Shown here one piece after another: positions 46,321-49,977 of a stretch of DNA of 55,067 bases (positions within the stretch are counted from its first letter, which is position 1; every line of letters starts with the position of its first letter). The position numbers and the translations under genes were made by a program. Source of the stretch: Spirochaetota bacterium (lineage in GTDB: Bacteria; Spirochaetota; Brachyspiria; Brachyspirales; JACRPF01); NCBI GenBank assembly GCA_038043445.1, contig JBBTBY010000069.1:1-55067 (forward strand). Direction: 5' to 3'. The notes under the pieces are model-generated. The model was not told where the DNA came from and did not search any database. It saw only the letters and a list, made by a program, of their open reading frames with translations.

Positions 46321-47529
46321 CTAAAAACTCAGCCGATAGCCGAGGCCTATCTGCGGCACCCAGGCGAAGGACACATCGCTTAAGGTGAGCATGAAAATAC
46401 TGCTGACGATAAGGTACACATTGATCGTGCTTACCGCGATGATCGACGGTGTCAATTCAAGCGCGAATGAACCGTAGGTGGACGGGGCGAGGTAGAGGAA
46501 ACTTACCCCGAAATGGAGACGCGTTTCGAGGGAGAAATAGTCGGCCTTGAGGAATTCCCATGAGCCGTATACCGATCCGTTGAAGAGATACTGGTCTATG
46601 AAAAGTCCGTTCGTCTGTTCCTGGCCGTAGTCGAAACCGACGGCGGCACCGGCAGAGAACGGTGCGAGGAAGCGCCAATCGAACAGTATCGTGATGAGAT
46701 TGCCCCCGCCCGCTTCAAAGCAGAGATCGTACCTTTTATTATCCTCGCGCGCATCGTCGCGGAGATTCTGCAGGAATTTCTCTCCGGGCGATGATGTCCC
46801 CGCGGCAAAGCGTACCATGCTGTTGGTGGCTATCGGCCGTTTCGCGGCGGCTGACGTTTCCAGTTGAGAGAGCGCATTATCATATTCGGATATCGATACG
46901 CCTTTCGTCAATATCGCGAGGCCGTCGTCGGCTGTGTCGCGTTTCCCCGCATCAATGAGCGCCGCACGCGCTCCATCAAGTTTTCCGGAAAGCGCCCGTG
47001 CTATCGAAAGGGCGATGTCGCGGCAGGCGGCATCGGACGGATCGATACGGGTGACATCGACGGACGCAAGGTGGCGTGCCGCCGCCCGCGGTCTTCCTTC
47101 CTTGAGACGGACGAGCCCTTGCGCAAGGCGCGACTCATTCCCTCCGCCGCTCGCGGCCGCGTCCGCCTTTTCGACGGAACCCATAGAGAGATACGTCTTT
47201 ACAAGGAAGAGCCTGTTCGTCCCGCTGTTGGGGAATTGCGCCACCGATTTCTCGAGATAGAGTATCCGCTTTGCGTTGTCGCTCGTTTCCCGTGCCGCCC
47301 GATAATATTTATCGACCTCGGTATCGAGTTCGAGTTTTTTTATCTGCGATTTCTCGATGGTCGTCGATTGCCCGTTCTTTTCATAGGTGACAGTGTCTTT
47401 TGTCTGCGAGAGTACCGTGCATTCGATGATCTCATTGTTCTCAAGAACGATACGGTCGGCGGCAATTACGGTAAAAGATAGAATGGTCAGGATGAAGAGT
47501 GCTGTGCGGGCAGTGACCGAAGATAACAT
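46321..47529 (-). CDS. Outer-membrane protein with TPR region and barrel
   Basis: 402 residues from the ATG at 47529, chosen because MLSSVTARTALFILTILSFTVIAA is a signal peptide. A TTG at 47565 is the alternative. Residues 26-70 are a small beta domain (ENNEIIECTVLSQTKDTVTYEKNG), then TPR-like helices (NSGTNRLFLVKTYLSMG...), and the last 150 residues are alternating strands ending in LSF, as expected of an outer-membrane barrel. A mobile element lies 53 bases upstream. A possible extended -10 (GCGTATTAT) ends near the ATG, so the leader is very short. Confidence 0.65.
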   Translation of the reverse strand: MLSSVTARTALFILTILSFTVIAADRIVLENNEIIECTVLSQTKDTVTYEKNGQSTTIEKSQIKKLELDTEVDKYYRAARETSDNAKRILYLEKSVAQFPNSGTNRLFLVKTYLSMGSVEKADAAASGGGNESRLAQGLVRLKEGRPRAAARHLASVDVTRIDPSDAACRDIALSIARALSGKLDGARAALIDAGKRDTADDGLAILTKGVSISEYDNALSQLETSAAAKRPIATNSMVRFAAGTSSPGEKFLQNLRDDAREDNKRYDLCFEAGGGNLITILFDWRFLAPFSAGAAVGFDYGQEQTNGLFIDQYLFNGSVYGSWEFLKADYFSLETRLHFGVSFLYLAPSTYGSFALELTPSIIAVSTINVYLIVSSIFMLTLSDVSFAWVPQIGLGYRLSF

Positions 47530-47572
47530 GATGTTCAGTATAATACGCAGCAACTTTTTCGTCAAATAAGCG

Positions 47573-47729
47573 GCGTTAAAAGTGAGTGACTTTCAATTGT
47601 AGGTAACATATGCCGCCATATAAAAGAGCACGGGGTTTTAACCCCGTGTTTGTTTTATCATACATGCTGTACACGGGGTCAAGACCCCGTGCGCTATACC
47701 TGCAAAGAAAAGTCACTCACGCGTTAAAA
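47573..47729. mobile_element. 139-bp MITE with 9-bp target-site duplication
   Basis: The element runs 47582-47720. It begins GTGAGTGACTTT and ends with the exact complement; matching continues to 24 bases with four mismatches (20/24). It is flanked directly by GCGTTAAAA at 47573-47581 and 47721-47729, an exact 9-bp duplication. Inside are two 20-base hairpins with 9-base arms and 2-base loops: CACGGGGTT/AACCCCGTG (47629-47648) and CACGGGGTC/GACCCCGTG (47672-47691). No open frame. It must have been moved by a transposase in trans. On the minus strand the second hairpin is followed by CTCTTTTAT and could end transcription from the mannosidase gene. Confidence 0.82.
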
Positions 47730-47787: not shown

Positions 47788-49920
47788 CTATCGGCCAGGC
47801 ATACCTTTCGTCGACTCTGCCATCATTATCGGGGCCGTCTGACGGGTTATCTCCGCGGCAATGACATCGAATGACGGATGCTTCATCGGCATGAGCGCTA
47901 TCTCATATTCATGCTCACCCTGATCGGTTATCGGACGTATATCGCCTTCGATCACCTTATGTGGGTCGTGATGCGCATAGTAGGGGCAGCGGAGGAGGGT
48001 AAGCCGCAGCATGCCATCGGGCTGTACATCTGCAGCGAAGATATCGCGGCTCACGACTGCGAGTGCTGATGATGCGCCGGCAAGCGAGACAAAATCGAAC
48101 ACCGGATATTCCTGGCCATTGCATGGACGCGCGATGCGTCCGCCGGGGATGCCGTCAATTCGCTCCGTGACCGCGAACCCCGTGGGGATGAGCAGTTTCA
48201 CTATTTTCTGTTTATCATTCCAATTGACACGAAGCCGCATACGGATGATGGGCTCATCCTTCTGAAGATAGACCTGCCAGAGCACGGATGATGATCTCAG
48301 CGACATGGCATTTTTCATCGTCGTCCGCAGCGGACCTTCGTTCCAGACGCTCCATGGCGTTTCGGTGTTGAACATGCCGCTTACCGCACCCGTGTATCCA
48401 CTGATACCATGCGACCATGTATCGGAGGTGTCGTCAATCGATGCGATGCGTATAGGGCCGCGGATAAGGCTGTCACCGCCGTACAAACCCATCGATGAAA
48501 TACCGCCCGCATCAAGCGATACCGAGACAAAACCGTTCGAAAGGGAGCTGTCATTGCGCACCACGGGTGCTACCGCTGCCGGAGCATCGCCGTACGAAAT
48601 GCGGAAAACCTTCGCGGCACCGGAGGGAATGGACATATGCGCGATGAGCCGGTTCTCCTTGAATGTCGCCTCGGCTTTGATCCGCTGGGTGGGCACCGCC
48701 GCACCGGCCTCGTCGCTCATGTTCATCGCTCCGGTCCATGGCTCGAATTCGACATAGCCGCTGAAATCATCTGTCCGAACGTTCGCGAACAGGAGCTGCA
48801 TCTCTTTTGACGGTGCAAGTGCTATCGCCTTTCTTCGAACGCTGTCGATGATGATGCCTCTGCACGCCGTCTTGGCCGCACCGAGCTCATCGAACGCGTG
48901 ATCGTACGCAGTGCGTATGGAACTTCCCGCAAGTATGTCGTGGAATTGATTAAAGAGGATGTGACGCCATGCCGACGCTATCGTCTCAGCGGCGACCTCT
49001 GAATTCCTGTCATGGGGCATCGTGCGCATGCATTGCTCGGCGGCGAGCGCCATGTCCTCAGCGGCGCGCATCTCCTTTTTTATACGGTGAACGACGCTGT
49101 AACAGCCGACCGCATGCATCTGCAGTTCATCCCTGACCACCGGAAGCGTTACGCCCGAGCGGCTGACCGCATCAAAGAACGCCCGCGGATGGCTGAATAT
49201 AAGTTCAATATCCGGCGCGAAGTGACGGTGTTCGATCATCCAATCGATCTCCTTGCGCGTCGGGCCGCCGCCATGATCTCCTGCACCTATAAAGCACATT
49301 GTATGACCGATGCGCCGATCGGCATCTTCGATGGTTTTTACCAGGTTCTGTTCAACGTACGGAATACCGCCGGTAGTGCAGTAGGCATTGCTGATGCGAA
49401 ACGTCGTGATGCACTTCTCCGACGGCGATTCCCAGGTGAAGATGTTCGACGGAAGTGCCTTTTCATGCTGCTGCGGGCGCATCATCACATAGGAGTCATA
49501 TCCCGCATCGCTGAAAAAATCCGGCAGTGTTGCTGCGTGGCCGAAGCTGTCGACATTATAGCCGATAGTGACGTCGATGCCGAATTCCTCCCTGAAGAAA
49601 CGTTTGCCGACCGCCGCCTGCCGTTTGAATGAAGCAGCGGAAGGGAGATTGCAGTCCGGCTGTATCCACCAGCCGCCGATGACGTGCCACCGTCCGTTCT
49701 TTACATGTTCTTTGACGCGAGCGAAAAGTGCCGGATCGAGACGTTTGATGACATCGTAGAACCACGCTTCTCCGCGGGTTATCACGATGTCGGGATATTC
49801 ATCGAGGACATCGCAGTTCGTCCGTGCGGTATTGATGACCTCATCGACACCCTGAGGCCATGTCCAGAGCCATACGGGGTCCAGATGCGAATTAAGGATG
49901 ATATGCACGGTCAGTTTCAT
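47788..49920 (-). CDS. GH38-type mannosidase-like enzyme
   Basis: 710 residues from the ATG at 49920 (GGAG eight bases before it). It opens with the GH38 catalytic domain: SHLDPVW (zinc H12 and D14), WIQPDCNLPS, nucleophile D124 in GYNVDSFGHAATLP and the late zinc histidine in FNQFHDILAG. The residue before the zinc His is N10-S11 where most GH38 proteins have His-Ser; this residue is not a zinc ligand. The sequence is only distantly similar to the GH38 at 16125, and no N-terminal sandwich domain is present. No signal peptide. Substrate may differ from plain alpha-mannosides. Confidence 0.88.
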   Translation of the reverse strand: MKLTVHIILNSHLDPVWLWTWPQGVDEVINTARTNCDVLDEYPDIVITRGEAWFYDVIKRLDPALFARVKEHVKNGRWHVIGGWWIQPDCNLPSAASFKRQAAVGKRFFREEFGIDVTIGYNVDSFGHAATLPDFFSDAGYDSYVMMRPQQHEKALPSNIFTWESPSEKCITTFRISNAYCTTGGIPYVEQNLVKTIEDADRRIGHTMCFIGAGDHGGGPTRKEIDWMIEHRHFAPDIELIFSHPRAFFDAVSRSGVTLPVVRDELQMHAVGCYSVVHRIKKEMRAAEDMALAAEQCMRTMPHDRNSEVAAETIASAWRHILFNQFHDILAGSSIRTAYDHAFDELGAAKTACRGIIIDSVRRKAIALAPSKEMQLLFANVRTDDFSGYVEFEPWTGAMNMSDEAGAAVPTQRIKAEATFKENRLIAHMSIPSGAAKVFRISYGDAPAAVAPVVRNDSSLSNGFVSVSLDAGGISSMGLYGGDSLIRGPIRIASIDDTSDTWSHGISGYTGAVSGMFNTETPWSVWNEGPLRTTMKNAMSLRSSSVLWQVYLQKDEPIIRMRLRVNWNDKQKIVKLLIPTGFAVTERIDGIPGGRIARPCNGQEYPVFDFVSLAGASSALAVVSRDIFAADVQPDGMLRLTLLRCPYYAHHDPHKVIEGDIRPITDQGEHEYEIALMPMKHPSFDVIAAEITRQTAPIMMAESTKGMPGR

Positions 49921-49977
49921 AGTGAACTCCATCCATTGACATGCAGATAATCTATCATCTTTCCGCTTTGTTGGCTT

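Follow-up and report, generated by a model that had tools for sequence, protein, structure and literature searches.

The 139-bp element in the window (the whole stretch of DNA analysed, 55,067 nucleotides, which lies in contig C69 of a 5.13-Mb draft genome in 178 contigs) is one of about 32 related elements in this genome, which share their ends and, for the most part, their position relative to a promoter. In 19–20 of 30 insertions the TTG of a sigma-70 -35 box lies exactly 16 bp beyond the same end of the element, the one carrying GTGNGTGACTTTCNATTG, against a background of 1.06%, while offsets of 15 and 17 bp account for one insertion each. These elements are MITEs, very probably placed at a fixed promoter distance by a promoter-targeting transposase, which is likely to be Mutator-like and of the TnGBS/ISLre2 or ISKra4 kind.

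The element in the window, its neighbours and its relatives

The initial annotation of this DNA had described a complete non-autonomous element with 24-bp inverted ends, an exact 9-bp duplication and two 20-base hairpins, all of which are present (Table 1). The ends of this copy, A1, are complementary at 20 of 24 positions (83%), the first 12 being perfect, and its two hairpins are 80% alike. As a single RNA strand the whole of A1 folds into one long hairpin of about -69 kcal/mol, 9–11 SD below shuffled sequences.

Table 1. Features of element A1 and of its surroundings in the window
Feature	Position	Strand	Basis
Family A copy A1, non-autonomous element, 139 bp	47582..47720	.	BLAST copies and ends
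Left copy of 9-bp target duplication GCGTTAAAA	47573..47581	.	exact repeat
Right copy of 9-bp target duplication GCGTTAAAA	47721..47729	.	exact repeat
Promoter-facing type of terminal inverted repeat, GTGAGTGACTTTCAATTGTAGGTA	47582..47605	+	
Terminal inverted repeat of the other type, GTGAGTGACTTTTCTTTGCAGGTA	47697..47720	-	
Hairpin 1, CACGGGGTTTTAACCCCGTG, predicted terminator-like in either direction, with a T-rich tail at each side	47629..47648	.	
Hairpin 2, CACGGGGTCAAGACCCCGTG	47672..47691	.	
-35 box TTGACG of target promoter, exactly 16 bp from element end	47560..47565	-	
-10 box TATACT of target promoter, 17-bp spacer	47537..47542	-	
Gene behind target promoter: exported protein, weak TPR match	46321..47529	-	Pfam
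GH38 alpha-mannosidase gene, upstream neighbour, reads towards A1 and ends at 47788	47788..49932	-	

That the element is complete and mobile is borne out by the rest of the genome, which the initial annotation had proposed to search for further copies. BLAST revealed five, bringing family A to six (on C69, C75, C78, C47, which has two, and C45); they are 79–94% identical to A1 over 138–139 bp, essentially the whole element. Further copies carry 9-bp duplications of their own, and exact ones are found at three of the six family A sites. The insertion had also been called fairly recent, with which the intact duplication agrees, but the closest copies to A1 are 93–94% identical. Being short, with inverted ends, without a transposase gene and in several copies with target duplications, A1 has the general attributes of a MITE, and its identity as a gene-less MITE is confirmed.

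A second family, B, was discovered through an end-pattern search of the whole genome (one mismatch in 12 and three in 25). It comprises about 25 copies of a 181-bp element, 178–185 bp in length, with the ends of family A and a different core made up of CACGAATT palindromes. Some copies are cut by contig ends, the assembly being broken inside them at the starts or ends of C36, C42, C52, C88, C96, C126, C148 and C158, and their number is therefore a lower bound. There is in addition a 54-bp miniature (C72:94162) consisting of scarcely more than the ends. Among the 24 two-ended copies the 9-bp duplication is exact in 11 and matches at 8 of 9 positions in four more, the values for B15 and B16 having been taken from printed flanks.

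The immediate neighbourhood of A1 had been correctly described as regards the mannosidase gene on one side and the 53 bp on the other, which separate the element from the ATG at 47529 of a minus-strand gene. The product of the latter had been called an outer-membrane protein; this is plausible, although its sole Pfam match is a weak one to TPR, below the cut-off. What had gone unremarked is a minus-strand promoter, TTGACG-17-TATACT, between A1 and this gene. Since the ATG comes 7 nt past the -10 box the mRNA is probably leaderless, and the TTG "start" at 47565 of the mechanically called ORF is in fact the -35 box. An ATG is found 4–9 nt past the -10 box at several element-linked promoters (47527–47542 in the window and similar sites), a hint that the organism often makes leaderless mRNAs.

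Spacing between elements and promoters

Promoters were scored by their match to TTGACA plus TATAAT with a spacer of 16–18. A match of at least 9/12 was present 15–17 bp from the GTGNGTGACTTTCNATTG end in 20 of 30 insertions (background 0.23%) and from the opposite end in 3 of 27; at a threshold of 8/12 the respective figures were 24/30 and 3/27. The mean match at offset 16 was 8.17 of 12, compared with 3.98 (SD 0.31) at other offsets. The 16-bp rule holds for every one of the six family A copies (at least 8/12), always with the same end, and the spacing is common to both families and to the 54-bp miniature despite cores that are different or almost absent. The exceptions are B10, B11 and B17, where no good promoter stands at the predicted position on the predicted side; a good promoter is found on the opposite side of B9, B10 and B14.

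Spacing and orientation, like the copies, ends and duplications, were read directly from the assembly. The ends were typed by their likeness to GTGNGTGACTTTCNATTG, ignoring the flanks, except in the miniature, whose ends were re-assigned after inspection, as its alignment supports. No two flanks resemble each other and the sites therefore count as independent. The sites that suggested the rule were also those used to test it; its distance is one published earlier for another transposon family (PMC3942029) and was known before counting.

Genes start directly behind most of the target promoters, among them, as judged by eye, kdsA-, nuoD-, coaX- and catalase-like genes, and a sigma-factor-like gene that follows a tRNA-Met. 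ORFs of at least 80 aa start behind 29 of the 30 promoter-side flanks but also behind 20 of the 27 others, so that this lenient test is supporting only. One family B copy (L015 44–200) ends 16 bp before a near-perfect tRNA-Met promoter, with a sigma-factor-like gene next.

Related transposons and rival explanations

Few families of bacterial transposons are known to target promoters. TnGBS and ISLre2 (p-MULT 3, Mutator superfamily) insert 15–17 bp upstream of the -35 box, with a peak at 16, and owing to a difference between their two ends it is the right inverted repeat that faces the promoter (Guerillot et al. 2014, PMC3942029). The p-MULT elements have inverted repeats of 18–39 bp with a terminal C and generate 8–9 bp repeats (PMC3942029). 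The present elements resemble p-MULT 3 in their duplications (at least 8/9 in 15 of 24 two-ended copies), in their repeats (24 bp, GTG...CAC) and in having the -35 box about 16 bp from one particular end (20/30 versus 3/27). Because duplication, offset and orientation are the same three features as in TnGBS/ISLre2, they are best explained by a Mutator-like transposase that reads promoters. The present elements differ in being gene-less, of 54–185 bp and with no detectable transposase, whereas TnGBS and ISLre2 are ICEs or insertion sequences of more than 1 kb that carry one, and in residing in a spirochaete-like genome rather than in Firmicutes, Fusobacterium or Synergistetes, where those have been reported (PMC3942029). 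Insertion upstream of promoters with 8–9 bp duplications is also a property of the ISKra4 group (p-MULT 4), but in its promoter-targeting members the ends are near-symmetric and a promoter lies on either side (PMC3942029), unlike the asymmetric ends and mostly fixed orientation found here. IS256 (p-MULT 1) is without the promoter preference that is so strong here. Short, gene-less elements with inverted ends and a strong hairpin fold are also known as Correia elements and Coxiella QMITE2, the latter with repeats of 7–9 bp; among the prokaryotic MITEs covered in the part of PMC10969869 consulted none is reported at a fixed promoter distance, and several themselves carry promoters. No MITE obeying this target rule emerged from the literature searched, although one may still have been described.

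We infer as the likely enzyme a Mutator-like DDE transposase of the TnGBS/ISLre2 or ISKra4 type, supplied by another element, which would recognise the inverted ends, the core giving hairpins and no protein. It would make a staggered 9-bp cut upstream of a sigma-70 promoter, always at the same distance, and join the element to it with the GTGNGTGACTTTCNATTG end towards the promoter, so that one of the two 9-bp duplicates separates element and -35 box; the element end would thus come to lie 16 bp before that box, at about -51/-52 from the transcription start. The fixed spacing and orientation imply that the transposase reads either the promoter or the RNA polymerase sitting on it; contact with polymerase has been proposed for TnGBS (PMC3942029). 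Insertion leaves the promoter intact, and transcripts running on from the gene upstream would be halted by the terminator-like core.

The matching transposase had been expected elsewhere, an expectation that the draft assembly does not confirm. Three families were profiled (E 0.001), and no ISLre2, ISKra4 or IS256 transposase was detected in the genome; for ISLre2 this negative is weak, both profiles having been silent in 14 control genomes as well. Nor did the end-pattern search reveal any longer element with these ends in the draft assembly. Lone end matches on four inspected contigs, considered as an autonomous partner, look like chance, and a weak ISKra4 match in another genome reads by eye as an IS256-type transposase. 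The end-pattern search found the ends in none of 392 other genomes of the phylum, and no DNA of family A was present in 60 relatives; many of the related genomes are small and come from one genus within the same order, perhaps Brachyspira. GTDB contigs and IMG/VR each gave one lone match without a partner end, and plasmids none. An empty site was not seen in the sole genome of the same family, which belongs to another genus and whose best homologue is 40% identical with a different upstream context. The transposase may have been lost from the genome, be missing from the draft or be too divergent for the profiles.

The absence of a p-MULT transposase from this genome, and of paired ends from every other genome searched, would suit a mover outside the Mutator superfamily, known or undescribed, that makes 9-bp duplications and prefers sites upstream of promoters. 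We regard this as unlikely, as the combination of an 8–9-bp duplication, a 16-bp offset and orientation has been reported for p-MULT 3 and ISKra4 (PMC3942029). Less probable still is insertion anywhere between genes, without targeting, followed by selection for promoter-side copies acting as insulators or as UP-like parts of the promoter. The core hairpin is predicted to be terminator-like on both strands, and the copies precede genes that seem important from names given by eye, both of which fit such selection; insulation, however, needs neither a sharp spacing nor a mostly fixed orientation, the spacing is kept by A, B and the 54-bp miniature with different cores or scarcely any, and the same 16 bp are produced by known transposases. 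As for a chance inverted repeat beside a chance 9-bp repeat, or an immobile REP-like pair of hairpins, similar pairs without ends do occur elsewhere in the genome, but this reading is refuted, and left with virtually no probability, by the five full-length relatives, which lie at unrelated sites and several of which have a 9-bp duplication of their own.

Hairpin cores and significance

The possible terminator role raised in the initial annotation is plausible, since on each strand a T-rich tail comes after hairpin 1, which is predicted to be terminator-like in both directions. It could plausibly end minus-strand transcripts from the mannosidase gene ahead of the next promoter, and in this way the internal hairpin may insulate the promoter downstream. 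CACGGGG hairpins without transposon ends were observed at C47:46131, C28:7889–7954, C162:8796–8862 and C46:25272–25329, mostly paired about 38–47 bp apart and resembling the family A core. As hairpin pairs of like sequence and spacing occur elsewhere without ends, this core may be a captured dispersed palindrome. A perfect 20-bp palindrome, CAAGGGGTCATGACCCCTTG, is present at L118 1501–1520 (C7:16543), L119 1501–1520 (C19:5372) and about a dozen more places; its copies are identical, extend to GAGAACAAGGGGTCATGACCCCTTGTTCTC in both inspected cases and probably represent a separate dispersed repeat or an operator.

This kind of targeting is already known; what is new, as far as the literature searched shows, is its occurrence in two transposase-free families in this phylum, which extends promoter targeting to MITEs and to another phylum. 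About 30 tiny insertions placed with near one-base precision yield a target consensus, and suggest that the two ends alone suffice for choosing target and orientation. The insertions also provide a cheap promoter map for a little-studied organism. More speculatively, and with rather low probability, gene-less elements with shared ends and exchangeable cores, terminator-like palindromes resembling the dispersed hairpins of the genome itself, may have been set as ready-made insulators before some 30 promoters by a transposase that reads promoters and may belong to a new family, and the upstream regulation of many genes would thereby have been changed in one lineage.
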